IMG/VR virus record: IMGVR_UViG_3300042569_003487 | Span: 62,001-126,000 of that record | Strand: one strand, 5' to 3' | Source of the DNA: a virus | DNA length: 64,000 nt | Made by a program: the position numbers and the translations under genes | In this document: positions 4,875 to 41,136 of the stretch, piece by piece | How the letters are laid out: every line of letters starts with the position of its first letter | How positions within the stretch are numbered: the stretch's first letter is position 1 | The notes under the pieces: model-generated | Databases searched by the model: none | Told to the model about the DNA's origin: nothing | The model's input: only the letters and a program-made list of their open reading frames with translations

Positions 4875-5570
4875 TTATGATAAGCCATCATTTTGTAAGC
4901 CAGTTCGACTTGAAAGAGCCTGATAATTTTTAAGAATTTCAGAGTTTGAGAGAGGCCGATTATAAATCTTAACATTTTTGATTTTACCATTAAGATTAAA
5001 ATATCCACCTGCATAGGTTTCACGACCGATCATTGTATTACCGGCATCGCTTGTAAGAGGGCGATCATTTTGGCTACCAGTATAATCACCGCCGGTTTGA
5101 ACCCCATTAACAAAGAAATTGTTAACGCCCCTAGACCTTCTCCAAGTTACATAATACCATATACCAGTATTAAAGGTATAGGGCACAGATATGTATGGCC
5201 GCCTCATTTCAATAGAAGCATTATTTTGATTTATCGCAAATGCCCAATGTTCAACATTCCAGTTACCAGACGAAACTAGAGTTCCATGATAATTATCATG
5301 ATTGCCTCTTACTGAAAAAAGAACTTCCATTGTAAGATCATCTAAATCAGTAAAATTTCGTTCAACATTAATATAAGAGCCATAATCTGGCTCAAAATTG
5401 AAAACCTTACCATTCAGATAAGATTCACTCATATTAGAAGATAACGTATAACCATTTAGGGAAAGATCGTAAACGGTTTGGCCAGATCCTGGATAACAGC
5501 TAGGATCCGCTGCTTCGACATAAAGTTGAAGTCCGCTTAATTCAATTCTTGGATTATAGTGTAGTGCCAT
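4875..5570 (-). CDS. LamG-like lectin protein (compact)
   Basis: A 231-residue single-domain LamG/concanavalin-like protein. Family marks are the start MALHYNPRIELSGLQLYVEA, a DPSCYPGSGQTVYDLS stretch parallel to the GSGSEWTNLAN of the 236-residue paralogue, GIWYYVTWRRSRG with FFVNGVQTGG, and the tail IYNRPLSNSEILKNY. The last residues diverge from the RFGL ending of its relatives. Its ATG overlaps the stop of the upstream 84-residue gene by one base. Probable glycan-binding tail component. Confidence 0.75.
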   Translation of the reverse strand: MALHYNPRIELSGLQLYVEAADPSCYPGSGQTVYDLSLNGYTLSSNMSESYLNGKVFNFEPDYGSYINVERNFTDLDDLTMEVLFSVRGNHDNYHGTLVSSGNWNVEHWAFAINQNNASIEMRRPYISVPYTFNTGIWYYVTWRRSRGVNNFFVNGVQTGGDYTGSQNDRPLTSDAGNTMIGRETYAGGYFNLNGKIKNVKIYNRPLSNSEILKNYQALSSRTGLQNDGLS

Positions 5571-5824
5571 TATGCTTGAGTTGCTGCTGCATTTTTTGCC
5601 TTATTATGAAATATTTGAGCATAGAACGCAAAATTATGGGTGATAAGACCAAATTCAGGCGAGCCTATATGAATAGCCCCTTCTTCGCGTTCACAAATAA
5701 AGAATATAGTTGAATTTACATCAATAATTCCTACAACTTTCATTCTTGAATTTGCTCCAATATTATAATAAGTGTCTAACTCATAGACAGCTTCTTCGAT
5801 TTGATATGATTGTAAATTTTGCAT
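5570..5824 (-). CDS. Small hypothetical protein after the Hint-domain tail gene
   Basis: An 84-residue protein, not recognised. It looks like a small beta-rich fold (MKVVGIIDVNSTIFFICERE) with an alanine-rich C-terminal helix (AFYAQIFHNKAKNAAATQA). It starts 1 base after the Hint-domain gene and shares one base (TAATG) with the following lectin gene, so it is embedded in the same transcription unit. Possibly a chaperone or small tail accessory protein; the sequence does not decide. Confidence 0.6.
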   Translation of the reverse strand: MQNLQSYQIEEAVYELDTYYNIGANSRMKVVGIIDVNSTIFFICEREEGAIHIGSPEFGLITHNFAFYAQIFHNKAKNAAATQA

Positions 5825-5825
5825 A

Positions 5826-7145
5826 TTATACGATTCCTTCTTTTCTATTATGTGATACTACATCTTCAATTACATAAGTATGTGCTTGATCAACTTCAAT
5901 TTGAATAACCGGTAATTCTCCAAGTTCCTCAATTGATTCAATTTCCGCAATACCATCTATAGTTTGTACTTTTGCACCAACCCATAGTTCTGATAAGGCT
6001 ACAAATCCCATACTTTCAGTTAAAAATTTGTGATTACTTGATACCTTTAAAGTTTTTCCACCAATTACAGTTTGACTTACAATATTGGTTGCAGGGTTTG
6101 CTAGGGTCACCTGGTATGATCCCCATTCACCAGTATGCTCGTGTTTAGTGTAAACATAATCTCCAACTTTAAGATCTCCTGCCATCACCCAAGTGTTAGG
6201 GGCAATTAGGATTGGCATATCTGGGGTTGGACAGACTCCAGATCCACACACCTCGTTAAGGTTACCATATCCACCATATGCGATTTCAAATCCACAGAAA
6301 AGATATTCTCCCCAGCAACAAGCCCAACCTTCAACTCGGTTATTATTACAATCAGTACCTTGCCACCAACCGCTTCCATCTGAATAAAAGCTATAACAGT
6401 CTTCGGCTGGAGGAACATATCCGCATGATGCAGAATTACTCTCAATTAAAGTCGAATAGGTTCCATTACAGCCATCTGAATAAGTATAATAAAGATTGTA
6501 ACCTGAACAATATTGACTTAGGTATGTTCCGTATGATGGAGAACAACAACAGCCTCCGCATGCAGTGGTACAACCTTGGTTTGTATCGTAAGTTCCGCAG
6601 CTACCGTTTGCATATCGATAATAAAGAATACAGCCTGAACAGTATTGACTTAAGTAAGTTCCATAGGCTGGACAGCCGGCTCCAGTAGTTATACTAAGTT
6701 GATTTGAATATCCAGAATAACCATTAGTTGAAGTACAAGTTATACGTACTCTTATTAAATATGTTGTACTTGCAGAAAGTCCGCTAATTGTTTTGGTTCC
6801 TTCGCAGCCTCCAGTATTGTTACTCCAGCTGCTACCTCCATTTGAGCTATATTCAACGTGCATTGCTGTACAATTTGAATAACTTACATTAATTGTAATT
6901 GAACTTGATGTACTTGAATTACTTGAAATACTTGGTGCATTACAACAGGCAAATGTATGGTTATAACCTCGCCACTCAGACATTGCCGCAGAATTGGCTG
7001 AACTAGGTCTACTTGGCGAGCAACTGTTAATTGCAACATATCCGCCATCCTCAGCTGATCCTAAACTAATTGGCGCTGCTGCGTTTCTTCCTAACTCAGA
7101 ATTAATCTGACTCATTCGGATTGCACCGCTGCTCGGTAATGCCAT
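5826..7145 (-). CDS. Cysteine-rich tail protein with FN3 and C-terminal Hint domain
   Basis: A 439-residue modular protein. Residues 1-60 carry a motif typical of phage tail proteins (SGAIRMSQINSELG, then MSEWRGYNH). Residues ~68-155 look like a fibronectin type III domain. Two cysteine-rich repeats follow (~158-188 and ~201-232), each with YGTYLSQYCSG. Residues ~305-433 form a Hint fold: nucleophile Cys305 in GVCPTPDMPIL, block-B-like SSNHKFLT with His372, and an end AHTYVIEDVVSHN with His432-Asn433. Only six residues (RKEGIV) follow the Asn and the +1 residue is Arg, so splicing is unlikely. Autocleavage or crosslinking, as in bacterial intein-like domains, is more plausible. It lies between the S74 fibres and the lectin array. 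Confidence 0.8.
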   Translation of the reverse strand: MALPSSGAIRMSQINSELGRNAAAPISLGSAEDGGYVAINSCSPSRPSSANSAAMSEWRGYNHTFACCNAPSISSNSSTSSSITINVSYSNCTAMHVEYSSNGGSSWSNNTGGCEGTKTISGLSASTTYLIRVRITCTSTNGYSGYSNQLSITTGAGCPAYGTYLSQYCSGCILYYRYANGSCGTYDTNQGCTTACGGCCCSPSYGTYLSQYCSGYNLYYTYSDGCNGTYSTLIESNSASCGYVPPAEDCYSFYSDGSGWWQGTDCNNNRVEGWACCWGEYLFCGFEIAYGGYGNLNEVCGSGVCPTPDMPILIAPNTWVMAGDLKVGDYVYTKHEHTGEWGSYQVTLANPATNIVSQTVIGGKTLKVSSNHKFLTESMGFVALSELWVGAKVQTIDGIAEIESIEELGELPVIQIEVDQAHTYVIEDVVSHNRKEGIV

Positions 7146-7146
7146 A

Positions 7147-10100
7147 TTATGCTCCTCTTAATTTTTTAACTTCTGCTTTAAGCTCTTCAATTTGTACTTG
7201 TTGAGCTTTAATAGATTCAATAAGTAGGGAGACTGTGTTTCCGTAAGAAACTGAAAGCTCACCATTTGCATTTTCAGATACGGCTTCAGGCAGGGCTTCT
7301 CGCATTTCCTGTGCAATAACTCCAGTATATCTTTTAGTAGGATCGGCTAAGTCTGTACGTGTAAATGTTACACCTCTAACTTTGCTAAGTCTTTCCAATG
7401 GATTATCAATTACCTCTATATTTGCTTTTACCCTAGCATCCGAATACGCAATAATATCGCCAATACACCAAATTGTATCTGAAATTGCAGTCCAAGTTCT
7501 ACCTACATTTTGTACTAACATACCATGGTTAGTTAAGTTGGCAGCTTCTCCGCCAGCATTTGGGTGGGACCATGCTATACCGTAATGATTGGCACAACTT
7601 GTACCGTCAGCCGCTAGCTTATAGGCATCGCCCATCGCAAATACACCTTGGAATCTCGTTGAAGTATAAACTCCAACTACAGTATTACCATAGTTATCAT
7701 CGATATAAAAGTTACCATTTGCTCGGGTTGCTCGAGCTGCAGTAATTGACCAAGAACCCGATGCAACTCCACGAATAATATCGGCTGCAACCGTTGTTGT
7801 TGCAGATCTATGATAGCTATCACCATTTTTAATTACAAATCGAGTTATTCCACTTTCATCATTATCAGTTGTGTTAATATATTGGAATCTTCCATAACCG
7901 CCGGCTGGATAAATTTCAGCCGTACCTGATGAAGAGTATACGCTATTTCCGCTATGCCATAGAATTGGGTACCATGAGCCTGAACCATTTCCTGAGTTAA
8001 CGGTTACAGTTGATGCAATTGTTGCAGAACTCGCTGAACTTGCAGAACTTGCTGAACCAGCTGAGTCTGCATATGCAACCTGAACTCCACTTGGGTGGTT
8101 TGATGTTAATTGCCAGTAAGATCCTGTCCAGTTAGCTCTAACATAATAGTCAGTAGGGTGAGATTCTGCCCATAATTTAAGAGCACCGTCTGCTCGGCTA
8201 ACCGTTTGCGATCCAATATTACCTGAGTGAATCATTTCGACCCAACTTCTAGGCGTATCCCAAGCACTTCTCCAAAACCATCTGTTATTTGCCTCTTGTG
8301 AACAAACCATTTGCCAACCATGGAATCTAGAACCATCCGAATTGTTATAATGGAATGCTTGCATTCCAACATAATGAGAAGAGGCACCAGGACCATTAGC
8401 GGGTGTTGACCAGGTATCAAAAAACCCAGACCCCCAATAAGAACCTATAGTATTAAGATCATATTGACCCCAACCCATTGCTCCTGTTTGATAAAGAGCT
8501 CCTTGTGCTGCTCTAGTACTCCATGGAGAATTGCTCTGTTTAGAGTTTAAACTATGTCTGTTTAGAGTAGCATCACCAAATCTATAAAGATTAGATGTAC
8601 CATTAGGATCTAAATAATAACCAGTATCATCTGAATCGTAGAATATTGGAGATCGCATTGAACCTGCTGCTTCCATATAAACGTCTGAATAAACTCGACC
8701 GTCTTCGATTAAAAGTCTACGGTTACCGCCTCTCATAATACTTACGTTATGGCCAGTATAACTACCAATATAAACCTGATCTGGCGTATGCACATAAATT
8801 CCAGCTTGAATACCTGGAGTCCTCGCCTCTACTACAAATCGGGTATGCGGTGCATTACTAAACCATACTTGGGTACCCCATCCCCCTGGATCTGACCAGT
8901 TACTTCCAGAATCTCCAACATAAAGATTTCGGATTCGGGATGATCCGGCTGGATCTAGGTAAAATGCACTATTGTCATTATCATAAAATGCTGCAGCATA
9001 CATGCCGGCACCAGTTATCCAGTTTCCACTATCATCACACCAACTACCCCAACTACCACTTTGATTTAAGAATCCAATTCGGTTAGAGTTACAATGAATT
9101 TCGCGAGTTCCTTCATCTGAATCGTGCATAAAGATTGATGAAGCACCTACTCCCTGCCCAACCGTAAGATTTCCATAAAGAGTAGTACTTCTGGCACTGT
9201 CTGTTAACAGCGACCAGTTTCCAGCATTATTCAAGAATCCAATATTATTAGAAGTATCAGCATAAACATATCCGCGAATAGTGCTTTGGTGATTACTTCT
9301 AAACACAAGTTCAACTACTCCGCCACTACCGGTAACTGTCCATCCAGATCCATTGCTTGAATAGAAATGAGTTCCGGTTGCCTGGTTGTATACACCTTCA
9401 TTTGTATTATAATTTCTAAACCATCCATAATTGTATACATTGGTAAAGGTAACTGCGTCTGATGTTCTAACATATTGATTCATATTGGAAGGATACGGAT
9501 CGGCTGATGTATTTAACGCTCTAAACCAGCCAGACCAGTCGTCAGCGCCTCTCCTAAAATATAAGTTGTCATAGGCGTATGGAATATAAATTTGAGCGCC
9601 TCTAGTTCTATTACCAATACCCCAAAGACTTGCATTATATGCAGCATCAGGGCCACCGTAACCGTTTATTGGGCCATATCCATCTAAGTTAACGGTGTAT
9701 TGTCCATCTAGGTCATTTAAGTTACCAACATTAACTTGATAACCAAGATTTCTTGTATATCGGCCATCTGCTGTTGCTTGTGACATACCTCCGCTTGGAA
9801 TAGTTACAGAGTTACCGCCGCTAATCGTAAGCGTAGATCCGTTGATACTTAAGGTTTGTCCATCGCTATTAGTATCTGTATCAATATCATTAAATGCTGC
9901 AGTTAAAGTTGAGCCATCACCTAAAGTTAAGGTTAAAGTTTTGGTTGAACTTCCACTAAATGCAACTCCAGTTGGGCGTTTATTATATGCAGTATTCCAG
10001 TTTGAAGCTGAGCTAATATATGAATCGCTAATTGCAGTACCATTCCAAACTGCGTTAGATAAAGTAGCGCCGCCCCAGCTCATATTTCCAATAATAGAAA

Positions 10101-11901
10101 ATGCACTACCATTCCACATGATTCTTCCTTGATAATCAGTTGCGCTATTTACAAAATCAATATAGGCGCCGGCCGTTCCGTATAATTGCAATTGAGCATA
10201 ACCATCTGCTAAATTGAATCCCATACCAGGATTAGTTAAGTTATATCTAGATGAAGAGGTGCTTCTGTCACCTACATAAAATGGAAATTTAGCATCAACT
10301 GAATCGCTATTAATTGCTATTTTACTATCTGAAATTGTTATTGAATTTGCACCATATTTACCAATTTTAACTGTGCTATTTGCTAGCACTTCAATAATAG
10401 GTAAACCTGCAATAGTATTAACACTATAAATGGTGTCTAACACTGAATCAGTTACGGTAAATAATCGACCATTAACCCCGTCTACTGCTAGGACATCGGC
10501 TCCATCGGTTGAACCCTTTACATATACAGTCGCGGAAGGCAATGAATATGCATAATTGGCAACCCCAACTGCTAATCTATTTTCAAGATTTAAGTAACTA
10601 GTTATAGCAGATGTACCTGAATGCCATCTACCTAATCGATATACGCTAGCTCCTCCAGCAGATGCGGTAAATGTGATACCTCTAACATTAGAACCTCCAC
10701 TTTGCATAGTATTAATTAATAAATCATGGTGGCCGCTTACTGCACTAGTATACCATTGAGTATTACCGGCTCCAATCCAAAAATCCTGATGTCCTTGAAA
10801 ATGGACATTTGTAATTGTACCGTTTTGACCGTTTAGGGAACCACTATCCCAACCTGAACTTGCTCCAAAATAAGAATATCTTCCATTTACATAAATTTCA
10901 CCAAATGTTGGGTTTGCTCCAGTTTGAACGCTTTGGTTTAACCAACTAGAAAGCCAAGTACTTCTAGTTCCTAAATATAAATCGCCGCTTGCTCCAAAAT
11001 TACCGTTTGTCCATAATCCAGAGTTTGCTTGGTATAAGTAATATGATGTTTGACCCGATGGATAAATTCCGCCTGTCATTATTAAATTTCCGCCGTTATC
11101 TACATCAAGAATATTTGTTCCGTCTGATCTTCTAAAAAAGAAGTTTCCCCCGCCTCTATTTTGAAAATATAGATGGCTTGAGTGCCACTGTATTTTATTT
11201 TGTTCACCTGTCCAAGCTCCATGCGTTCCAACATATGCAGCACCTGCATCTAATGTAAGGCTACCTGACATTGAGTCTCCTGATGCATTTACAAATCTTG
11301 AATCAGATTCAGATTCAGTATAATATCTGTCATCATGACTATGGCTAATTGCAGCAAATCTTGAATCAGATTCCGATTCAGTATAGTATCGGTCATCGTG
11401 ATTATGTGAAGGAAGAGCTGTTAAGTAGCTTTGAGAAGTTACCCAGCTGCGAAGAGCTAGCGGTTCATTATCTACTGCAAATAGACCATCTGCTCGAACT
11501 CCAAATCGTTGAACGTGTCGATTTCCCCAATGAAATGTAATTGCAGGGGCATAGTTCCAATCACTTTGGTTAGATCCAACATATCCTTGTTCACGGATTT
11601 GAATCGCACCTTCATATACTCCAGTTCCAATAGAAGGTATGTAGAGTTGGCCAGTCATTGTACCACCAGATAGGGACAGTTTTCCAGCTAGAGAGTTTGT
11701 TAGTGTACTAGCAAAACTTGCATCATCTCCTAATGCAGCAGCCAATTCATCAAGGGTATTTAAAGCACCAGGTGCACCTGCAATTAAGTTATTAATTTGC
11801 GTAGTAACATAAGAGGTTGTTGCAATTGAGTGGTCTGCCATGTTACCGGCATGAATTGCAATATGTCCATTGATTGTGGTTCCGTGTATTAATTGTGCCA
11901 T
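7147..11901 (-). CDS. Giant tail fibre with C-terminal S74 intramolecular chaperone
   Basis: A 1584-residue fibre. The N-terminus is like other long tail fibres (ATTSYVTTQINNLI, then GALNTLDELAAALGDDASFA). The middle is repetitive beta-rich shaft, with two HDDRYYTESESDSRF repeats near residue 170-200 and aromatic/glycine-rich modules. The last 98 residues match the peptidase S74/endosialidase chaperone: Ser1487 in YSDARVKANIE, YTGVIAQEMREALPEAV, and a C-terminal coiled coil (IKAQQVQIEELKAEVKKL). In this family the chaperone drives trimerisation and cuts itself off at the Ser, so the mature fibre would be ~1486 residues. It shares modules with the next, larger fibre. Confidence 0.88.
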   Translation of the reverse strand: MAQLIHGTTINGHIAIHAGNMADHSIATTSYVTTQINNLIAGAPGALNTLDELAAALGDDASFASTLTNSLAGKLSLSGGTMTGQLYIPSIGTGVYEGAIQIREQGYVGSNQSDWNYAPAITFHWGNRHVQRFGVRADGLFAVDNEPLALRSWVTSQSYLTALPSHNHDDRYYTESESDSRFAAISHSHDDRYYTESESDSRFVNASGDSMSGSLTLDAGAAYVGTHGAWTGEQNKIQWHSSHLYFQNRGGGNFFFRRSDGTNILDVDNGGNLIMTGGIYPSGQTSYYLYQANSGLWTNGNFGASGDLYLGTRSTWLSSWLNQSVQTGANPTFGEIYVNGRYSYFGASSGWDSGSLNGQNGTITNVHFQGHQDFWIGAGNTQWYTSAVSGHHDLLINTMQSGGSNVRGITFTASAGGASVYRLGRWHSGTSAITSYLNLENRLAVGVANYAYSLPSATVYVKGSTDGADVLAVDGVNGRLFTVTDSVLDTIYSVNTIAGLPIIEVLANSTVKIGKYGANSITISDSKIAINSDSVDAKFPFYVGDRSTSSSRYNLTNPGMGFNLADGYAQLQLYGTAGAYIDFVNSATDYQGRIMWNGSAFSIIGNMSWGGATLSNAVWNGTAISDSYISSASNWNTAYNKRPTGVAFSGSSTKTLTLTLGDGSTLTAAFNDIDTDTNSDGQTLSINGSTLTISGGNSVTIPSGGMSQATADGRYTRNLGYQVNVGNLNDLDGQYTVNLDGYGPINGYGGPDAAYNASLWGIGNRTRGAQIYIPYAYDNLYFRRGADDWSGWFRALNTSADPYPSNMNQYVRTSDAVTFTNVYNYGWFRNYNTNEGVYNQATGTHFYSSNGSGWTVTGSGGVVELVFRSNHQSTIRGYVYADTSNNIGFLNNAGNWSLLTDSARSTTLYGNLTVGQGVGASSIFMHDSDEGTREIHCNSNRIGFLNQSGSWGSWCDDSGNWITGAGMYAAAFYDNDNSAFYLDPAGSSRIRNLYVGDSGSNWSDPGGWGTQVWFSNAPHTRFVVEARTPGIQAGIYVHTPDQVYIGSYTGHNVSIMRGGNRRLLIEDGRVYSDVYMEAAGSMRSPIFYDSDDTGYYLDPNGTSNLYRFGDATLNRHSLNSKQSNSPWSTRAAQGALYQTGAMGWGQYDLNTIGSYWGSGFFDTWSTPANGPGASSHYVGMQAFHYNNSDGSRFHGWQMVCSQEANNRWFWRSAWDTPRSWVEMIHSGNIGSQTVSRADGALKLWAESHPTDYYVRANWTGSYWQLTSNHPSGVQVAYADSAGSASSASSASSATIASTVTVNSGNGSGSWYPILWHSGNSVYSSSGTAEIYPAGGYGRFQYINTTDNDESGITRFVIKNGDSYHRSATTTVAADIIRGVASGSWSITAARATRANGNFYIDDNYGNTVVGVYTSTRFQGVFAMGDAYKLAADGTSCANHYGIAWSHPNAGGEAANLTNHGMLVQNVGRTWTAISDTIWCIGDIIAYSDARVKANIEVIDNPLERLSKVRGVTFTRTDLADPTKRYTGVIAQEMREALPEAVSENANGELSVSYGNTVSLLIESIKAQQVQIEELKAEVKKLRGA

Positions 11902-11906
11902 ATTAG

Positions 11907-14900
11907 TTATCTATTTTCAAGATCGTCAATTCTCTTGGTTAAATTTTTTATAAGTTCTTGTTGTTCTTGAATAGTTTTAATCAAGATTGGTGCAATACGC
12001 GTATAGTTAATACCATCGACTTGACCAGCATCATCATATTTAATTAATTCAGGGTAGATTTCAGCAACCTCTTCTGCAATTAAACCAATTTCAGTTGAGC
12101 CAGTTCCACCAATTTTGGTATAGTAAACAGGTCTTAGTTGTAATACTTTGTCTAGTGCTGGAGTTAAGGACTCAACATTAGTTTTATATCTAATAGATGA
12201 TAATTCTACCAATCTATTTGAAAGAGTTAAGGTACCTCCAGTATCAAATGTCATTCTAACATTATTGTCTGGAACGTATACAAACTGTAAATTTCCAGTC
12301 TGGTTTGAATTATCATTTGGCGAATCACAAATAAACCAACTTTCCCATTGAATTCCTTCTCCAAATCCAGAATCTGACATTGTAATATGTCCAACTCCAT
12401 CTAAGTTATTATTGGAAAAATTAACTGTTCCAGTAATAGTTCCACCGCTTAGTGGTAGATAATAACCATCAATTACTTGACTTCTAAAGTGGGCTGGTGT
12501 AGATTTTCTTAGGTAGTTATCACTTGTATTTTGTGTCCAAATCTGACCAATCGTTGGGTTTTCTGAGTTACCATTAGATGCATTAAAATAGGTTCCTAAG
12601 ACATAGTTTGAATAGATATTTCCACTACTGTCTCTTCGTACAATTGTATTTACATTGGCAACAGTATCTGCATTATATCCATCCAATAAGTCAGCATCTA
12701 ATCCAGAACCTGCTCCATCATTTCCAGCGTGCCATATAGTATTGCCATTATATGTAAATCCAGTAAGATTTTCAAAATAAAGTGCTCTTGAGTTGTTAAT
12801 GTATATTCGACGAGCAATATCAGCATCAGCTGAACTCCTAGTATAAACTGCATAATCTGTATAGTATGCATTAGCTGTACTATATCCATCAAAACCGATT
12901 CGACCAACAATAGTTCCATCGGGCTTAGTTTGTTCAATCCATGAATTATCATCATTTGTTAATAATCTAAGGTTATTATAACTACCTGTGTTTCTGATCA
13001 CTAGATCACCTGTCATAGTGTCTCCACTTGTATTAACCCATACATCAGATACTCCAGTAATATAACCTTGAGAAGTTACCCATGATTGAGTTGCAAGTAA
13101 GTTACCTCCACCATACGGCACATTTCTAAAATATGCAACATTGGCAGATGTTATTTCAAGTGCAACTGAAGTAGGTTCATAAATATCACCGTACCCTAAT
13201 TTAAAGCTATCTGTGTTATTATTATTGGTCATTCCCATTGACCACATAGGCATTCCAGTATAATCCCATGCAACACCTTGTGAAACATTCATTCCAGTGG
13301 TAAACATTAAGGTTGCCTGATTTCCACTAGCCTCTCGATTAATGAATACTCTTGAAGTTCCAGTAGATGCGCTAACATATAATTCTGGGTTGGTTCCGAC
13401 CAATTGGATTTGTGCTGGATTGCTTGATGGATAAACATACAAGTTGCCACTCATTGAGTCTCCTGTTACATTAACATAGAGAGAATCGGCTGTTCCTTGT
13501 GAAATACCTCCAGTTGGAAGCGTAATTGAGTTACCTCCACTAATTGAAAGAGTACTTCCATTTAAAGTTAGGGTTTGAGCATCAGTATTTGTATCAGTAT
13601 CGATATCTGTCCAGCTTGCAGTCACAGTACCTCCATCTCTTTGAGTAAGAGTTAAGGTTTTAGTTGAGGTTCCGCTTACTGAGGCAGAAGTTATAGTATC
13701 ATTATATGCAGAGTACCAATTTGCAGATGTACCATGACTTGGAGTTGAAATACCACTTGCATTAATTGTAATTGGTGCAGAGAAAGGTCCTAATTTAACT
13801 GTATTATTTGCAAAGGCTTCTATTACTGGAAGACCTGCAATTGTATTTACAGAAAATAGGGAATTTGAAAGATCATCGGTAACCGTAAATAGTCGACCGT
13901 TAACTCCATTTACTGCAAATAATTCTTGTCCACTTGTTACTCCGCTAATTACTAAAGGTCCAGTCATTGAATCTCCAGTAATATTTACGTATAGAGGATC
14001 AGCTGCAGCTTGAGTTAACCAGCCACCATAATTTCCAAGCGAGCTTCTTACATGAGCAAGGGTAGATTTTCTTAACCAACCATCTCCATTTGATGTAAAG
14101 AAAGAATTAATACTTGGATTTTCGGTTTCACTAACATTAGTATTAATATAATTAGCATAAATATAACCGTTACCATCTCTAATAACTACAGTGTTTGCTC
14201 CAACTGAACCCGATGCATGATAACCATCTAATAAGTCTGCATCTAAGCCAGAACCTGATCCGTCATTTCCTGGATGCCATGGAGTATAACCTAGAGCAGT
14301 AGTAACATTTGCTGAAGTAATTCCAGTAATATAACCGGAACCATTTGTAAGCTGGTTATTATTTGTAATAGTATTTGTAATTGTAACCTGTTGGTTTGAA
14401 GTACTAACCGAAATACCTGCTCCGGCTACTGCGCTTAATAAACCAGTATTATTAATAGTAACCTGTTGATTTGATGTACTAACAGTAATACCTGTACCAG
14501 CGGCTGCACTTAATAAACCAGTATTATTAATAGTAAGGTTTTGGTTTGAAGTACTTACTGTGATACCTGTGCCTGCCGTTGCACTAAGTAGAGCAGTTGT
14601 ATTAATAGTAAGGTTTTGGTTTGATGTGCTTACTGTGATACCGGTTCCAGCCGTTGCCGATAGTAAGGCAGTTGTATTGATCGTAAGATTTTGATTGGAT
14701 GTACTTACGGTAATACCTGTTCCAGCGGTCGCAGACAATAATCCAGTATTTGTAACAGTAACTGCGCCGGTAGTCGAGTTTACTGAGATTCCGGTTCCGG
14801 CCGATACCGAAGAAACGCCAGCCGTAATTGTCCAAGATCGGTTTGCCGATAAGTCATAGGTTGTACCATTAATTGTAAGGGTACGGGAAGTAGGAACATA

Positions 14901-17900
14901 TCCAGATAAAGCAGCTGAAGTAATATAACCTGGACCATTTGTTAATTGATTTAAGTTAGTTAGGTTACCACTATGCCAAATTAGGTGTCTAACTGCTCCG
15001 AGTGACCATCCGCCCCATACTAAGTCATTTTCTACACCGCCTAATCCAAAATAACCGGCGTAATCCCCTTCAATGTGAAATGTAATATATGCATCTCTGC
15101 CTGCAGAGTCTTGTAATATCGTTAATCCTCTATCGCCAGCCGCAACCACGTCAACCGTTGTGCCTGAGGTTTGATAAAATCTTGTAGTTCTAGCCGTAGT
15201 ATCACCACGAGAAATTACACTATCAAGAGTATCGGTCTCAGTATAACCAGTAATATAACCTGGACCGTTTGTTAATTGGTTAAGGTTAGTTATTGTATTT
15301 GTAACCGTAACGTCTCCTGTAGTCGAGTTTACTGAGATTCCAGCGCCGGCCGATACTGAAGAAACTCCAGCTGTAATTGTCCAGCTTCTATTTGCTGATA
15401 AGTCGTAGGTTGTACCATTAATAGTAAGAGTACGAGAGGTTGGAACATATCCGGAAAGTGAGGCAGACGTAATATAACCTGGGCCATTTGTTAATTGATT
15501 TAAGTTAGTTAGGTTACCGGCATGCCATATAACATTATTGCCATATGTTAAATCACCTGGACCAGTTCTACCTAGCGCAGTATTGTCAGCTTCACCAAAT
15601 ACAATGTATGCTTCATTTGGGTCTTGTGCACCCTGAATTCTAAATGTATTAGCTAAGTTAATGTCTCCTATCCAAGCATCATCACCTATTCGAAAGTTTG
15701 TACCATTACCATTATTTGTTGTTATAACTGAATCGACAGTTATTTGAGCGGTTGAGGTTGCGCCTCTTCCAACTACACTTGCAAGGGTATCAGATTCCGC
15801 TGTTAAATATACGTTTGAATCTAGTGTCCACGTATTTGTTCCTGTTCTTTTTAAGAAACCAGTTGCGGTCAATCCAGCAATTGCAGTTAGGTCTCCGTCT
15901 AATGGTTGATATGTAGTAGAGGCAGTTCCAGTAGTTAAATAGGTATTTGAATCAACTGAACCATCTGCTTTTAAAAATTGACTTGATGTTCCTCCAACCT
16001 TAATAAAGGATCTGCCTGTAATATCGTTTGCAGCAAGATCTGCAAGTGCAAATGAAGCATGTGAAGTATCAATAAATGGAGAAGCATCTGGTTCTGGCGT
16101 ATATCCCTTAAAGAATTTCCAAGTATTATCAGTTGCATCTCTAAATAATCCGGCATGGGCATAAGAACCATCATTGTAACCAGCAGCAAATCCTAAATCT
16201 GGATTAGCATTTGATTTAGCTCTTGCAGTACCACCTGAACTATAGGATCCAGTTGCACTATTTGCAATTGTAAATGAGTTTGTTGAAACTCCAGTAATTA
16301 TTTGATTTGATAAGTTGTATGCAGTTGGACTTACACCAGTAATAGTAACTGACATTCCAATAACATAGTTATGGGTCTCTTGCGTTGTATAAACTACGCT
16401 TGAACCATTTCCTACTGCATTTGTAATTGTAGTAGCAATTCCATTGTTCAGATAAATCATGTTATCTGATACTGCTAGGTTTTGCGCATAAACTGTAGTC
16501 GTAGTACCTCCAATTATTAAGTTTCCTACTACATTAAGATCTCCACCAACATATAGATTCTTTGCAATACCTACACCGCCTGCTGTAACGATTGTTCCAG
16601 TTGAGGTTGATGTTGCTTGCGTTGTACCCGAAAAAGTTTTAATTCCTGCAATAGATTCATTACCTGTGGTATGGACAACATTTGCATCATTGGCTGGTGT
16701 AAATCCTAACCAGCCTGCAATTGTTTTATTAACCCATAAGGTTCCATCGTATCCTAAAATATGTCCATTAACTGGAACAGTTGTAATTAGGTCAACATCA
16801 TGAATTTCCTTTAGTTCAAATCCATTTTGAACTTTAACAAAGATCTCACCAGTATTTGCATTTTTTCTGGTAACAATACCGATAAAAACAAGATGTCTAG
16901 GCGCATATGGCTTATTAGGTAAACCATAAATTAAGTTTCCATTATCGCCTAACCAAACTGGATCACCTTCAGTTCCAGCTAGAGACGTATCTAATCCGGC
17001 TAAAAGACCCTCTGTTACAACATTGGCCATTCCATTGATTGCAACGGTTGCATCTAAGAGACCCATTGTTTTTGATGAAGTTGCTTCACTTCCATTTGAT
17101 GCAAGATCTACAATCATATTGGTTCCATCTGCACTTGTTACATAAACAGCTTGACCTTTATTAATTGCAACGGCTGCTTTTACACCATGTTGAACTCTTG
17201 ATACATAGCTAACCGTATCAATTGTCCAAGCCCTGTTTGCGCTTAGGTCATATGAAGTTCCATTAATAGAAAGGGTTCTAGAAGTTGGTACATAGTTTGG
17301 AGTCCAATTAACCCATTGAGATCCATTAAATTGTAATAATTGTCCAGTTGCGGCTAATGAAATTGTAACATCAGTTAGGCTATCTAAATTAGTAGGAATT
17401 GAAATATTTGTTGCAGATACTGCAGTAACCAAACCTTTGCCGTTAACTGTAATCACAGGAACTGCTGTTGCTGAACCAAATGTTCCAACGTTTGAGTTAA
17501 CTGTTGCTAAGGCTAGGCCAATATTTCCGTTTGAAGTTAAAGGAGAGTTTGCAATTACAAAATCAGAACCAGTAATTCCAACTGAAGTTAAGGGTGGAGT
17601 TACTGTATTGTAACCAATCGTCCACCAATAAGTTGTACCATCATAATAAACACCTAGAACATCTGTTGCATTTGCAGCAGAGCTTGCTGTATATGAACCT
17701 CCACCAACGATTGAACTTCCTCCAGGTAGAGTTAAGGTACGACCGCCGGCTGCATCTTGTTTAACTAAGATTAAACCAGTATCGCCGGCTTCCATATTGG
17801 CAATAACTAGAGTTCTTGCTCCAGCAATGGTTACCTTTGCATTAGCACCAGAATTAAAGTCCCAAGTAATAGCGGCGCCATCAGTTAGGGTCTGTTGAGC

Positions 17901-18077
17901 CATCGTAACTTTACCATTAACCTTAAGATTTCCACCAATTGTGAATTTTTTGGCAGACTGTAGGGTTAGGGTAAGATTACCGGCATTATCATGTTGTAGG
18001 ACTGGCTTATTAGCAACGTTATCGCCAATAAATTCTAGTAAGCCTGTTGCTGGGGTTATCTTGACCGTTTGCGCCAC
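11907..18077 (-). CDS. Giant tail fibre with S74 chaperone and tandem repeats
   Basis: A 2056-residue fibre. The N-terminal region (TPATGLLEFIGDNVANK, then GGNLKVNGKVTM) resembles T4-type fibre starts. The shaft contains many beta-repeats, including five copies of a 25-residue unit (LLSATAGTGITVSTSNQ core) around residue 1110-1235 and two long copies of a module with SRTLTINGTTYDLSANRSW. The last ~97 residues are an S74 chaperone: Ser1960 in SSIRYKTNVE, IGLIAEEVAEIYPELI, and a closing coiled coil (IQEQQELIKNLTKRIDDL). Autocleavage at the Ser would release the chaperone after trimer folding. Followed closely by the second S74 fibre. Probable long side-tail fibre; which receptor it binds cannot be read from sequence. 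Confidence 0.88.
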   Translation of the reverse strand: MAQTVKITPATGLLEFIGDNVANKPVLQHDNAGNLTLTLQSAKKFTIGGNLKVNGKVTMAQQTLTDGAAITWDFNSGANAKVTIAGARTLVIANMEAGDTGLILVKQDAAGGRTLTLPGGSSIVGGGSYTASSAANATDVLGVYYDGTTYWWTIGYNTVTPPLTSVGITGSDFVIANSPLTSNGNIGLALATVNSNVGTFGSATAVPVITVNGKGLVTAVSATNISIPTNLDSLTDVTISLAATGQLLQFNGSQWVNWTPNYVPTSRTLSINGTSYDLSANRAWTIDTVSYVSRVQHGVKAAVAINKGQAVYVTSADGTNMIVDLASNGSEATSSKTMGLLDATVAINGMANVVTEGLLAGLDTSLAGTEGDPVWLGDNGNLIYGLPNKPYAPRHLVFIGIVTRKNANTGEIFVKVQNGFELKEIHDVDLITTVPVNGHILGYDGTLWVNKTIAGWLGFTPANDANVVHTTGNESIAGIKTFSGTTQATSTSTGTIVTAGGVGIAKNLYVGGDLNVVGNLIIGGTTTTVYAQNLAVSDNMIYLNNGIATTITNAVGNGSSVVYTTQETHNYVIGMSVTITGVSPTAYNLSNQIITGVSTNSFTIANSATGSYSSGGTARAKSNANPDLGFAAGYNDGSYAHAGLFRDATDNTWKFFKGYTPEPDASPFIDTSHASFALADLAANDITGRSFIKVGGTSSQFLKADGSVDSNTYLTTGTASTTYQPLDGDLTAIAGLTATGFLKRTGTNTWTLDSNVYLTAESDTLASVVGRGATSTAQITVDSVITTNNGNGTNFRIGDDAWIGDINLANTFRIQGAQDPNEAYIVFGEADNTALGRTGPGDLTYGNNVIWHAGNLTNLNQLTNGPGYITSASLSGYVPTSRTLTINGTTYDLSANRSWTITAGVSSVSAGAGISVNSTTGDVTVTNTITNLNQLTNGPGYITGYTETDTLDSVISRGDTTARTTRFYQTSGTTVDVVAAGDRGLTILQDSAGRDAYITFHIEGDYAGYFGLGGVENDLVWGGWSLGAVRHLIWHSGNLTNLNQLTNGPGYITSAALSGYVPTSRTLTINGTTYDLSANRSWTITAGVSSVSAGTGISVNSTTGAVTVTNTGLLSATAGTGITVSTSNQNLTINTTALLSATAGTGITVSTSNQNLTINTTALLSATAGTGITVSTSNQNLTINNTGLLSAAAGTGITVSTSNQQVTINNTGLLSAVAGAGISVSTSNQQVTITNTITNNNQLTNGSGYITGITSANVTTALGYTPWHPGNDGSGSGLDADLLDGYHASGSVGANTVVIRDGNGYIYANYINTNVSETENPSINSFFTSNGDGWLRKSTLAHVRSSLGNYGGWLTQAAADPLYVNITGDSMTGPLVISGVTSGQELFAVNGVNGRLFTVTDDLSNSLFSVNTIAGLPVIEAFANNTVKLGPFSAPITINASGISTPSHGTSANWYSAYNDTITSASVSGTSTKTLTLTQRDGGTVTASWTDIDTDTNTDAQTLTLNGSTLSISGGNSITLPTGGISQGTADSLYVNVTGDSMSGNLYVYPSSNPAQIQLVGTNPELYVSASTGTSRVFINREASGNQATLMFTTGMNVSQGVAWDYTGMPMWSMGMTNNNNTDSFKLGYGDIYEPTSVALEITSANVAYFRNVPYGGGNLLATQSWVTSQGYITGVSDVWVNTSGDTMTGDLVIRNTGSYNNLRLLTNDDNSWIEQTKPDGTIVGRIGFDGYSTANAYYTDYAVYTRSSADADIARRIYINNSRALYFENLTGFTYNGNTIWHAGNDGAGSGLDADLLDGYNADTVANVNTIVRRDSSGNIYSNYVLGTYFNASNGNSENPTIGQIWTQNTSDNYLRKSTPAHFRSQVIDGYYLPLSGGTITGTVNFSNNNLDGVGHITMSDSGFGEGIQWESWFICDSPNDNSNQTGNLQFVYVPDNNVRMTFDTGGTLTLSNRLVELSSIRYKTNVESLTPALDKVLQLRPVYYTKIGGTGSTEIGLIAEEVAEIYPELIKYDDAGQVDGINYTRIAPILIKTIQEQQELIKNLTKRIDDLENR
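14369..14743 (-). repeat. Five tandem ~75-bp repeats inside the 2056-aa fibre gene
   Basis: Five consecutive in-frame units of 75 bases encode 25-residue repeats with the core SAxAGTGITVSTSNQ. The last unit has drifted (AVAGAGISVSTSNQQ). The period keeps frame, so gain or loss of units would lengthen or shorten the fibre shaft without breaking the gene. Boundaries are approximate. Confidence 0.8.
14751..15524 (-). repeat. Two long imperfect module repeats in the fibre gene
   Basis: The stretches about 14,751-14,970 and 15,290-15,524 encode nearly the same ~75-residue module: NQLTNGPGYITSA, GYVPTSRTLTINGTTYDLSANRSW and SSVSAGxGISVNSTTG in order. A weaker relative of the middle part lies near 17,220-17,300. 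Third-position changes show the copies are old enough to have diverged at the DNA level while the protein stayed similar. Confidence 0.7.
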
Positions 18078-28600: not shown

Positions 28601-29638
28601 TTACTGGAAGCTTTGATAGAAACCTCCACCGCTTGACATTCCACCACCGCCAGAATAACCACCTGAATAGTAAGTTTCACCACCAGAATAAGTAAAGGTT
28701 GAACTTGTAATTGGTGCAGTATAACTAAATACTAGATCAATTTCGGTAATCGTTTGATTTGATAATGCAGGGGTTGGGTTTGTACCTGATCCAATTAGTT
28801 CTTGATTAAATGGTATGCTTGTACTTTGTGAGCCGGTCGTCGGAGACTTTAACTGCCAATAAGAGAAAGAATAACCAGAAGGAAGCGACGAAGAAACTGA
28901 TACGTTAACATTTTGATTACTACTAAATGATCTAATAATTTGATTAGAGTTTCCAGATTGAGGAATACCTGCAAAACCATTTGATGTAATTGTAATGTAT
29001 GAAGATAGAGTACTTGATGAAATTGATGCTCCAGTTGTTCTAATTAAATTTACTTTAAAAATACCTCCATAAAAAGTTGCAGCAGTCGCAGATGCACCAA
29101 CGGCAGGGGCATAATTTGCAGAAATAATTCTCCAAGTATAAGTTTGAGGAGTAGCTAATCCTCTAGATGTACGTTGACACTGAACGGTTACCGAGTTAAT
29201 TGGAAGGTTTGCAACAGTTGTAATAGCAGCACTAGTTAAAGGAAGAGCCGATAAATTTATTACAGTTGTATCAGTATTACCTGATGTAAACTTAACTTCG
29301 ATTGGCGAACTTTTTTGATTAACTAAAACATAGGTCCTGTGCAAAACTTCTGCAGTAGGCGACGGTAGAACCATGCTAGTAATTGCGCTAGTCGATCCAG
29401 CGTATACAGCATAGTGTCCATTATTTAGTTCTAATGCTCCACTCTTGTCACTTCCAAAATAGGCGACCGACGGCAAACTTAATGATCCATTAAGCATAAA
29501 GTGTGAAGTTGGATTAGAAAGAACTGCATCCATGGTTGCATCTTCATAATAATTAAACTTACCAGCTGCCATTCTACCATCACGAGTAACGGTAAATTTA
29601 ATAGCTTTTAGTACGTTAGATAGACTTAATGTTTTCAT
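28601..29638 (-). CDS. Tail protein with glycine-rich C-terminal adhesin-like tip
   Basis: A 345-residue beta-rich protein. Residues 1-180 are a fibre-like domain (NGSLSLPSVAYFGSDKSGALEL, NNGHYAVYAGS). Residues ~185-310 resemble an Ig-like/BIG fold with FSYWQLKSP. The last ~30 residues are strongly glycine/serine/tyrosine-rich (YYSGGYSGGGGMSSGGGFY). Glycine-rich tips occur in receptor-binding adhesins of T-even phages, so a host-contact role is plausible, though there is no sequence proof. It is 14 bases downstream of the collagen-like gene and followed by the nucleotidyltransferase-like gene. Confidence 0.6.
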   Translation of the reverse strand: MKTLSLSNVLKAIKFTVTRDGRMAAGKFNYYEDATMDAVLSNPTSHFMLNGSLSLPSVAYFGSDKSGALELNNGHYAVYAGSTSAITSMVLPSPTAEVLHRTYVLVNQKSSPIEVKFTSGNTDTTVINLSALPLTSAAITTVANLPINSVTVQCQRTSRGLATPQTYTWRIISANYAPAVGASATAATFYGGIFKVNLIRTTGASISSSTLSSYITITSNGFAGIPQSGNSNQIIRSFSSNQNVNVSVSSSLPSGYSFSYWQLKSPTTGSQSTSIPFNQELIGSGTNPTPALSNQTITEIDLVFSYTAPITSSTFTYSGGETYYSGGYSGGGGMSSGGGFYQSFQ

Positions 29639-37440: not shown

Positions 37441-40400
37441 TTACATAAAATTAGTGATAGAAGAATTCATGGATAAATCAAATGCTGAGTTTTTAAGAAT
37501 ATCAGTTAAATCTGATATGTAAACTCCGCCACCGCCTCCGCCACCAGATGAAACTGGCGTAAATATAGTTGGCGATGTAATAATTGTATCACGCTGATGC
37601 TTACCACTAACTTGAATATCAAATTCAAACAATCCACTTTTTGTGTAAATGTCCAATCCGATAATTTTTGTATATGTAATGTTGGTTAATTTTTGACCGG
37701 TTGACCAGCCTCCAATTTCACCGATTTTATCAGTTGTTCTAAATTGAAAAACTACTGGCACTGTTATTGAAGCAGCCGATCCAGCCATAACTGTACGTTT
37801 AGATGATCTAGCGTTTGAACCATCTACTGAAATTGATGCATAAGATTGTGGCATCATAAACAAATATGCACCACAGGTCTTTTTACCAATTAAGTAATCA
37901 TCGCCAGTACCAAATCCCAACTTAATTGGAAAAGTATTTAGGGCAGTATATAGCGCTCCGCCATATGCAGATGGCGAAACTGGTGTAACTCTTTCCGCTT
38001 GAGCATAATATGGTACGCCAAATTCGTTTGTTCCAGCTTCGACGCTTGTATTAAAGTGAATAGCTTGAGAAAACGGTAAATACTTTTGAGCAGTACTTGT
38101 TATAGTATTATTAGAAAATTCGTAAATAGAATTTGTAGTTAATCCTAAGAAAATATTGTTAATTGTTGCAGTAGACGGAGATGCAACTGTACCTAATACA
38201 GAAAAATACGGGTGGTCTTTATGAATACAAAACTCAGTATAGGTTCCATTTCCTTGACCTACACCATTTGTTACGGAACCGTTCCAAACTTCAATTGCAG
38301 ATCCTCCAGATGGAATTGATGGTAAGTAGTGTCCTCCCATATAATTAGGCTTTCCAGAAACTGCGTTTGCTGATTGACTAAACGCATAGTTTTGGTTTGT
38401 AAAATATGAAGAAGGATTGGTGTTAGATCCAAATGCTGATGTATCTAATAGGTCACCATAATACAATCTCTTTCCATTATCTGAGTTATAATATCTAGCA
38501 TAGACGTATTGGCTTTTTACTTGAGCAGATTGATATCCTGTTCTTTGAGTAAATGCCGCAAATCCTGCGCTAGCAACTCCATTTAAGTTTAATGGAATCT
38601 TATCATATCTTAGATATGCATTGTATTGAGTATCTGTGTTTGCTCCTGGGAAAGAAGTTGGTGCAGCAACTCCAATACCTCCACCTAGAGTTGAAACTAG
38701 TTCAAGTGGAGTTTGTGAAGCATTTCTAATCTTTACTTGATATTCCTTTGATACAATTTTTCCCTTATCTAATGCGCCATCTGCTAATTTAGCAGAGTCT
38801 ACATAATATCCGGCGAATAGATCAACCATTTGACCATTTGTAACCTGAACTTCACTTCCTTCTGGTGTAACAATACTAACAATAAGTTCAGCAGTTGCAG
38901 TTGAAAGAGATGATTGAATTGCAGAAAGAGAATCAGCAATTTCCTTTAATTTATCATATAAAGAAATTGCAGTACCGTCTGCTAAGAAAAATCCAGATGC
39001 AATTGCATCAGTTGTATGTGAATAGTATTTGTCTTTACTACTAAACGCGGTTGATAGGTGAAGGTCTAACCCTCTAGCATTAAGTTCTTCTTGTAAAGCA
39101 ATTCGACTTTCATCTGCCATTGCCTGTTGAGCAATCAAAGTATTTTCTTCAGACGATTGAATATTTGCTGGAAAATCTATAGTAATAGATTCTGACCAAT
39201 CCGATTCAACTGGATTATCAGGAAAACCTGCTTCAGATAAAGATTTAATTTTAATTTCTACAGATTCCCCTTTTCTAATTGCAATTTCTAATTGGTTAAT
39301 GTTAACCGAATTTGGATCAGCTACATTTTCCTCTGTCCATTCATATAGGCCAGTTGTTGAATTATAAACCTTTTGTTTAGATTTAGTTAAAACTTCTGTC
39401 CATGGAGAAAAATATCCAGTACGTTGAGTTCCAGTAGAATCAGTAAATGTAATAGGATCAGCTGCGGATGCATCTTTATTTGAACTTAAATATCGGTAAG
39501 CAATCTTAAACTGCACAGTTTTCTGTAAGCCATATGGCGAATTAATATCTGCTGGAATTTCCCAAAAACCTCTAACTCTATATTTAGGTGAAATGCTAAA
39601 CTCAGGAGAAGTTTTTACATTTAATGAAAGTTCTTTAACTACAGTTGATAGCTGAGAAAAGGCTTGTGCTCTAGCTGAAGTTTTATTGTTTAAATCAGAC
39701 TGAGCTTTTAAACGAATTGCATCGTTTTGGTTACCCGAAGAATTAATAGTTTTCTTAAGAGTATCAATCGATTTATCAAGCTCTCTTAGATTAGAGTTAA
39801 TTGACTCTTTTTGCGAAACTAGATTTTTAACAGTTGATGCAGAATCAGTATTTGTTACATGAGAATCAATTTGTAAAACTTTAAAATTTTCAGCATTTAA
39901 TGCTGGGGCATTCGGTTGAAATCCTAATGAGTTAGGAAGTTTCTTTTCTTTAGCAAATGATAAAAATAGTAAACCAAAATCTGCTACAAAGTTATTATAG
40001 TATTCGTTTAGGGTTAAGTTTTGACCAGTTTGTAGAGTAATTTGAAGTTCATTTGTATAAATTCCAAAACCACTAGAAATAAAATCTACAGTTAAGTCCA
40101 TTTTTGAACTAATTGGTTTGATGAAAATTACTTCTCTTTCATTATAACCAATATTTACTGCAAGAATAGGTGAACGGTATATTTCCGGTTTAATTCTTAG
40201 GTTTTCAAATAAAACAATACCATCTGAACCAAATACGCGTTTTAAAATAACTGACTTGTCTTTAGTATCAACTGATTCAACTAAATATTCTGAATTTTCT
40301 TCAGTAATTAATCTTGAGCCAACTGATAATTCTCGGCGCTGTGCCGCTGGAGTAGATCCAGTAACATCAGTATAGTCTAATCTATCTAAAACATACTTTA

Positions 40401-41136
40401 TTTTGCTATAACTTAGGATTTCTCCGTTAATTGTTTCAGGAACGGTGATTTCCGATATAGTTTGGACTTTAAAGGTTCCTCTATATCTGTTAATTGCACC
40501 AGGTAAATCAACGATATTAGTATCTTCAAAATAAGAGATTCCATTATTTACTAAATCATTTAGTAAAGTAGTATAGTTGATTGTATTTTTTCCATTATAA
40601 TTATTATTAAAATACGTAATTAAGTCAGTATCTTCTCCAACATTAACAATTACTCGACGAACTTCAAACTTAGAAATATCATCAGCCATATAATTGGTTA
40701 CATCGATTGGAACATATAATAGTGGGCTAAGGAAACTTTCAAAAAACCAGTTGTTTTTGGTTTTAAATCTAGTCGGTAGGCTAAGCGACGCATCCCCAAT
40801 TTTCTCTAAATCAGAGATAGTTTGAGTAATATCATTAAGCTCGAATCTTTTAACATTTCCTTGATCGTCTTTAATTCCAATGGTATTTCCATTTGCATTT
40901 ATTAAAGTCTTAAATTTAGCATCAATTTCCTCAATGCGACCATTCATATAACCAATTGAAGGAATTGGAATAGTCGTACTTGTAGTAGGATCGTCTGTGT
41001 TAATTTGAGTAACTTCAACTTGGCTAGAATTTGTAGTCAGAGCTTGATTCATTTTTGAAATAAGCTCTTGTGCGTTTGCTGACTGTACGCCAAGTGAACC
41101 TAGGATCTCTGATAAAGAGTTTGTTTCTTCAGCCAT
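37441..41136 (-). CDS. Large (1231-aa) baseplate/tail structural protein with coiled coil
   Basis: An N-terminal region (~1-100) with NSLSEILGSLGVQSANAQEL and a conserved-looking GNTIGIKDDQGNVKRFEL. At ~430-500 there is a coiled coil (VSQKESINSNLRELDKSID, then LKKTINSSGNQNDAIRLKAQ). A fibronectin-like part follows (FWEIPADINSPYGLQKTVQF). The C-terminus is beta-rich and ends after a Gly run (SSGGGGGGGVYISDLTDIL). Its start overlaps the stop of the upstream 709-residue gene by one base, so translation is coupled. Best read as a trimeric tail component with a fibre-like tip. No catalytic signature. Confidence 0.65.
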   Translation of the reverse strand: MAEETNSLSEILGSLGVQSANAQELISKMNQALTTNSSQVEVTQINTDDPTTSTTIPIPSIGYMNGRIEEIDAKFKTLINANGNTIGIKDDQGNVKRFELNDITQTISDLEKIGDASLSLPTRFKTKNNWFFESFLSPLLYVPIDVTNYMADDISKFEVRRVIVNVGEDTDLITYFNNNYNGKNTINYTTLLNDLVNNGISYFEDTNIVDLPGAINRYRGTFKVQTISEITVPETINGEILSYSKIKYVLDRLDYTDVTGSTPAAQRRELSVGSRLITEENSEYLVESVDTKDKSVILKRVFGSDGIVLFENLRIKPEIYRSPILAVNIGYNEREVIFIKPISSKMDLTVDFISSGFGIYTNELQITLQTGQNLTLNEYYNNFVADFGLLFLSFAKEKKLPNSLGFQPNAPALNAENFKVLQIDSHVTNTDSASTVKNLVSQKESINSNLRELDKSIDTLKKTINSSGNQNDAIRLKAQSDLNNKTSARAQAFSQLSTVVKELSLNVKTSPEFSISPKYRVRGFWEIPADINSPYGLQKTVQFKIAYRYLSSNKDASAADPITFTDSTGTQRTGYFSPWTEVLTKSKQKVYNSTTGLYEWTEENVADPNSVNINQLEIAIRKGESVEIKIKSLSEAGFPDNPVESDWSESITIDFPANIQSSEENTLIAQQAMADESRIALQEELNARGLDLHLSTAFSSKDKYYSHTTDAIASGFFLADGTAISLYDKLKEIADSLSAIQSSLSTATAELIVSIVTPEGSEVQVTNGQMVDLFAGYYVDSAKLADGALDKGKIVSKEYQVKIRNASQTPLELVSTLGGGIGVAAPTSFPGANTDTQYNAYLRYDKIPLNLNGVASAGFAAFTQRTGYQSAQVKSQYVYARYYNSDNGKRLYYGDLLDTSAFGSNTNPSSYFTNQNYAFSQSANAVSGKPNYMGGHYLPSIPSGGSAIEVWNGSVTNGVGQGNGTYTEFCIHKDHPYFSVLGTVASPSTATINNIFLGLTTNSIYEFSNNTITSTAQKYLPFSQAIHFNTSVEAGTNEFGVPYYAQAERVTPVSPSAYGGALYTALNTFPIKLGFGTGDDYLIGKKTCGAYLFMMPQSYASISVDGSNARSSKRTVMAGSAASITVPVVFQFRTTDKIGEIGGWSTGQKLTNITYTKIIGLDIYTKSGLFEFDIQVSGKHQRDTIITSPTIFTPVSSGGGGGGGVYISDLTDILKNSAFDLSMNSSITNFM

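Follow-up and report, generated by a model that had tools for sequence, protein, structure and literature searches.

A Hint domain with a lysine-marked C-terminus on a phage tail protein and on other phage proteins, with a possible role in self-excision

The window analysed here is a 64,000-nucleotide stretch of viral DNA, corresponding to positions 62001–126000 of the IMG/VR virus record IMGVR_UViG_3300042569_003487, which is 141,925 bases long. It contains a gene for a tail protein that ends in a Hint domain (Table 1). The ATG start of this gene has a AAGAGGAG-like ribosome-binding site upstream, and the protein contains 25 cysteines, Cys305 included. An earlier sequence-only reading had placed a Hint domain at the end of this protein, with Cys305, His372, a His-Asn end at 432–433 and only RKEGIV after it, and this numbering is exact in the 439-aa translation. 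It had also described two adjacent fibres as self-cleaving, and Peptidase_S74 was indeed matched in both (7147–11901, E = 3e-12; 11907–18077, E = 3.7e-11). An 84-aa gene without any family match is immediately downstream of the Hint gene in every orthologous locus checked (L001, L004, and L005). Elsewhere in the window, a gene at 52679–54271 was judged from its sequence to encode a GroEL-like chaperonin.

Table 1. Coordinates of the Hint-bearing gene, its domains and key residues, and related genes in the window.
Feature	Positions	Strand	Basis
Whole gene, tail protein with C-terminal Hint	5826..7145	-	439 aa ORF and orthologs
N-extein, residues 1-304, Cys-rich	6234..7145	-	Region N-terminal to Cys305
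FN3-like beta-sandwich in N-extein, about residues 72-157	6675..6932	-	Pfam fn3 and AF2
Hint domain, residues 305-433	5847..6233	-	Pfam, PDB, AF2, Foldseek, and profile matches
Cys305, first Hint residue (putative thioester former)	6231..6233	-	Cys in 67/68 clusters
His335-Glu336, clade-specific pair	6138..6143	-	H in 68/68, E in 65/68 clusters
His372 (SSNH), block B histidine	6030..6032	-	H in 67/68 clusters
His432-Asn433, predicted C-terminal splice/cleavage site	5847..5852	-	HN in 68/68 clusters
C-terminal tail R434 K435 E436 G437 I438 V439 (RKEGIV)	5829..5846	-	Translation
Lys435 at +2, proposed acyl acceptor	5841..5843	-	Lys at +1/+2 in 66/68 clusters
84-aa gene abutting the Hint gene	5570..5824	-	60-79% identity in L001, L004, L005
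Hint-less ortholog of the L012 Hint carrier	28601..29638	-	69% identity over 309 aa of the L012 N-extein
Hint-less homolog of the L069 Hint carrier	37441..41136	-	31% identity over about 1200 aa

The N-extein matched Pfam fn3 weakly (E = 0.04), and the FN3-like domain is the only confident part of a full-length AF2 model, the rest of which is too poor for use. For the Hint domain, the single sequence matched Pfam PT-HINT (E = 9.7e-5; 23.1 bits, under the 27.7 cut-off of that family) and Intein_splicing (E = 0.0033, residues 304–433), while the best PDB sequence match was 2lwy, a bacterial intein-like (BIL) domain of Clostridium thermocellum (E = 5.9e-6). Taken from the single sequence, this evidence appears weak but real. 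An AF2 model of the Hint domain built with a family alignment reached a mean pLDDT of 92.3 and a pTM of 0.86, with the tail after Asn433 disordered. Foldseek matched this model to 2lwy (E = 1.7e-9, TM 0.82–0.85) and to BUBL1 BIL2 (6y75, 2.2e-9), followed by DnaB inteins, and to hedgehog at 2.5e-6. The family profile matched 6y75 at 1.3e-10 and 2lwy at 1.8e-10. Given the model confidence and the structure and profile matches obtained with the family alignment, the identity of the Hint domain is beyond doubt.

Five IMG/VR contigs hold three distinct orthologous proteins (68–77% identity) of identical architecture, which rules out an assembly artefact. Their tails read RKDEGIV, RKMGGFE, and VKQP. 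All the catalytic residues are kept in these orthologs and Lys435 is invariant, while Val304 at position −1 is replaced by Gln, Phe, or Met. The dN/dS values against the orthologs were about 0.15–0.17 for the Hint and 0.17–0.28 for the N-extein; the Hint is under purifying selection.

The same Hint clade can be found on more than 20 unrelated phage proteins in IMG/VR. Alignments place it at the C-terminus of unrelated proteins of related large phages, including collagen-like fibres and a structural-looking protein of 700–900 aa. Wider scans yielded 68 Hint clusters with less than 80% identity to each other, whose N-exteins sort into more than 20 groups without detectable mutual similarity. The carrier families include DUF4815/phrog_358, Phage_Tail_Tip, and a tail-tip J-like protein; the label of virion protein is firm for carriers with tail or baseplate matches, and the remaining carriers are probably virion proteins. 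The layout is often a poly-Gly linker, the Hint, and a tail of 2–46 aa. The Hint is C-terminal in 33 of the 68 clusters, with tails within that range, and lies between domains in the others. Glycine occupies position −1 in 22 of the 33 C-terminal clusters and in 29 of all 68. Tandem Hint pairs were observed in single proteins of L079, L080, and L107, the last with a spacer of only LVGKGS.

With a 1413-aa protein of the window as a query, no cultured relatives were detected among 50,697 phage records, and the Hint query returned mostly terminase inteins together with one unannotated faecal phage (MT835519). This human faecal phage record (L164) encodes an outlying member, a J-like tail-tip protein with a Gly-rich linker, a Hint, and the ending SHN-IKQQEQLQ. 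As to a bacterial origin, one pattern scan of genome contigs returned no match and another a single MAG contig, both scans reaching only fairly close relatives. In this Gemmatimonadetes contig (L163:5692–6573), a 293-aa protein has a leader-like LTDAELEAVAGG stretch followed by a clade Hint and the ending SHN-KAMF, and is possibly a secreted peptide precursor. A survey of PT-HINT in 200 genomes of the phylum of L163 found nothing, and a plasmid search gave no match. Among those Hints outside the clade that were read, the +1 residue is C, T, S, or A.

The Hint is an optional insert at linkers and protein ends, as indicated by its patchy presence in the DUF4815 family and by Hint-less orthologs. 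A 1,001-aa DUF4815 query spanning the Hint matched 1,496 phage records, none of which covers 80% of the query. In cyanophage S-SM2, only 17 aa separate the two flanking domains, against 270 aa, including the Hint, in L152. The window phage itself has one Hint only, yet three of the Hint-bearing proteins have orthologs or homologs in it that lack the domain (Table 1 lists two). The 1231-aa protein at 37441–41136 ends in GGGGGGG and a short tail, the layout expected after Hint removal. In L110 (849–8623) and L093 (843–8672), the Hint closes the gene for the N-terminal half of a DUF4815/phrog_358 protein, and the next gene encodes the C-terminal half; L101 and L111 have the Hint at a different site of this family. 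All four loci distribute the protein over two genes, but the break falls at different points, and the Hint is located at the break or close to it.

Lysine follows the invariant His-Asn at +1 (43 clusters) or +2 (25 clusters) in 66 of the 68 clusters, and at both positions in only two. From +3 to +12 it makes up just 15 of 608 residues (2.5%). Cys, Ser, or Thr is never found at +1; where Lys is at +2 only, the +1 residue is mostly I, V, or M, and also L, F, or R. This lysine is the strongest signal in the data; the sequence-only reading had overlooked Lys435, which follows a rule common to the whole family. Formulated on a first set (13/13, then 48/50 clusters), the rule held in all 18 clusters found afterwards. 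It also holds in the two distant cases of MT835519 and the Gemmatimonadetes MAG, and the shortest tail consists of Phe-Lys followed by a stop. The two clusters without it have tails beginning ISKF and LVGK, the latter preceding a tandem Hint. Parsimony implies 12 or more shifts of the lysine from one of these positions to the other, four or more of them on well-supported branches; the Hint tree is poorly resolved, and the 68 clusters are not mutually independent. Its codons are a mix of AAA and AAG similar to those inside the Hint, so the constraint falls on the amino acid. Programmed frameshifting at HN-Lys was rejected as a general cause, since the codons are mixed and the alternative frames at most loci run into a stop after no more than a few dozen codons; long open ones are present only in the window family, where the next gene abuts, and in L110.

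A second shared mark is His335-Glu336, at which the aligned residues of 2lwy and 6y75 differ. Because the search patterns spanned the Hint start and the AHTY block, conservation at these columns partly reflects the search itself. His372, His-Asn, and the lysine were in no pattern, and His335 fell within a pattern in the first narrow scans only.

BIL domains are known as a class without a nucleophilic +1 residue, most of which cleave and some of which splice (PMC5874633; PMC7664689; PMC7765530). The window Hint shows the features of the HINT superfamily, namely the fold, an N-terminal Cys, and the block B histidine. Like A-type BIL domains, it combines an HN end with a non-nucleophilic +1 residue, and its clade is found in variable regions of non-conserved proteins, here the linkers and C-termini of more than 20 unrelated phage proteins. 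It can thus be classed as an A-type-like BIL domain, with autocleavage or splicing activity predicted. Class 1 inteins differ in having Cys, Ser, or Thr at +1, where this protein has Arg, and a conserved insertion site, whereas this Hint is C-terminal and six residues from the stop. Class 3 inteins lack Cys or Ser at position 1 and carry a WCT motif, whereas Cys305 is present here. A hedgehog autoprocessing domain would be followed by a sterol-recognition region, but only RKEGIV follows the Hint. Likewise, there is only weak profile likeness to the polymorphic-toxin PT-HINT (PF07591), and six residues follow rather than a downstream toxin domain.

Among characterised systems, C. thermocellum BIL4 (2lwy, A-type) shares the fold, the HN end, a +1 residue other than Cys, Ser, or Thr, and a location in a variable protein region. 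The phage domains differ from it in being on phage virion proteins, in having Lys at +1 or +2 and an invariant H335-E336, and in often being C-terminal after poly-Gly. BUBL1 BIL2 of Tetrahymena (6y75, 6tmm), alike in fold and profile, forms an isopeptide bond with the epsilon-amine of a C-extein lysine and can also pass its N-extein to other substrates (PMC8616854). The lysine that such a BUBL-type reaction requires is present and conserved in the phage protein, where isopeptide chemistry is putative. Unlike the phage Hints, BIL2 belongs to a eukaryotic polyubiquitin-like locus, its acceptor lysine is in the next domain rather than at +1 or +2, and its solved, mutated construct reads H-A-M-Q where the phage Hints have HN and Lys. 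Known phage inteins (phiCbK TerL, PMC3556154; Corynebacterium phage Stickynote, L169) share the Hint fold and HN end, but these terminase and polymerase inteins sit in conserved enzymes with Ser, Thr, or Cys at +1. The S74 intramolecular chaperones are similarly C-terminal, self-removing modules on tail proteins, although of unrelated family and chemistry.

The sequences provide an intact fold with its catalytic residues, purifying selection, modular spread, and the Lys/His-Glu signature. The module most likely removes or rejoins itself by chemistry unlike that of canonical inteins. We put it at an even chance that the gene encodes a tail-protein precursor with a self-excising BIL-type Hint, in which a lysine accepts the N-terminal thioester as an isopeptide, or as a peptide through the alpha-amine. 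In the folded Hint, Cys305 would attack the Val304 carbonyl, which would leave the first 304 residues as a thioester. The acyl group would then pass to Lys435, giving an isopeptide, or to the freed +1 alpha-amine, giving a peptide bond, and cyclisation of Asn433 would release the Hint. The product would be the 304-residue tail protein rejoined to a short peptide and, with the Hint gone from the mature virion, would have the architecture of the Hint-less orthologs. The role of the Hint is likely that of a temporary C-terminal cap or timer in tail assembly, similar in logic to the adjacent S74 chaperones.

The signature is most simply read as that of a built-in lysine acceptor, for which BUBL1 BIL2, among the closest folds, offers a precedent. 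A point against it is the Val at −1, which is not an easy thioester site, and the lysine could instead orient the tail, accelerate Asn cyclisation, or do something else. The main rival is plain autocleavage, in which Asn433 cyclises and/or the thioester at 304 is hydrolysed without ligation and the lysine aids geometry or rate. BIL domains are reported to yield mainly cleaved products (PMC7664689; PMC7765530), the Hint-less orthologs show that the N-terminal part suffices, and a tail this short makes ligation seem pointless: as a product bearing a tail of 2–20 aa has no evident purpose, ligation may be a by-product and cleavage the function. We nevertheless consider this rival rather unlikely, as it leaves unexplained both the confinement of the lysine to +1 and +2 and the tail that stops at it, and Asn433 cyclisation alone would shed just six residues. 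The sequence-only reading had not expected normal splicing. Canonical class 1 splicing is indeed not expected with Arg at +1, but a missing +1 nucleophile does not exclude ligation, since some BIL domains splice and BIL2 ligates through a lysine epsilon-amine. Its proposal of a self-processing virion protein fits an intact, conserved, and probably active Hint, for which self-processing would probably be a maturation step, but is not peculiar to this protein, as the module is on many.

That reading had further suggested that host attack on the thioester could attach the tail to the cell surface. In HK97, isopeptide cross-links join virion subunits, and the thioester here could similarly be transferred to an amine of another virion subunit or of the host surface, leaving the tail protein covalently attached. 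The ability of BIL2 to conjugate ubl4 to other substrates (PMC8616854) and the frequent Gly at −1, accessible to external nucleophiles, are consistent with such cross-linking, which we nonetheless judge improbable. The candidate acceptor lysine is in the same chain, and its recurrence in 66 of 68 domains suggests that the acceptor belongs to the protein itself and is not a host nucleophile; the bulky Val at −1 of the window protein would not favour external attack, and Asn433 is invariant yet would be unnecessary for trans-transfer alone. Attachment to the host surface in particular is possible but unsupported. Least probable is a selfish or decaying mini-intein carried as a harmless passenger. 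The lack of a homing endonuclease and the patchy distribution across orthologs would suit it, but the Hint is under purifying selection and carries the new Lys and His-Glu marks common to its clade, none of the scanned carriers matches a DNA-metabolism family (those that matched are tail or structural), and the sites are variable linkers and C-termini instead of conserved active sites.

In the freely accessible literature, we found no phage virion BIL, and term look-ups in papers on CBB, MIJ3, and jumbo phages likewise turned up no virion protein with such a domain. Within this literature, phage BILs marked by Lys seem not to have been described before, and the phage setting, the modular spread, and the Lys and His-Glu marks were not encountered. 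More tentatively than for the single protein, we propose a phage-borne Hint class in which Lys at +1 or +2, with His-Glu, acts as the acceptor for self-excision through an isopeptide, serving many kinds of virion protein as a portable module for maturation or cross-linking. If true, this would be a new chemistry in the Hint superfamily, with Lys replacing Cys, Ser, or Thr, on virion proteins, for which the literature searched describes no autoprocessing Hints. It would also offer protein engineering a compact self-removing C-terminal tag, the shortest natural tail being two residues, and would provide a testable model of phage tail or baseplate maturation or covalent locking.
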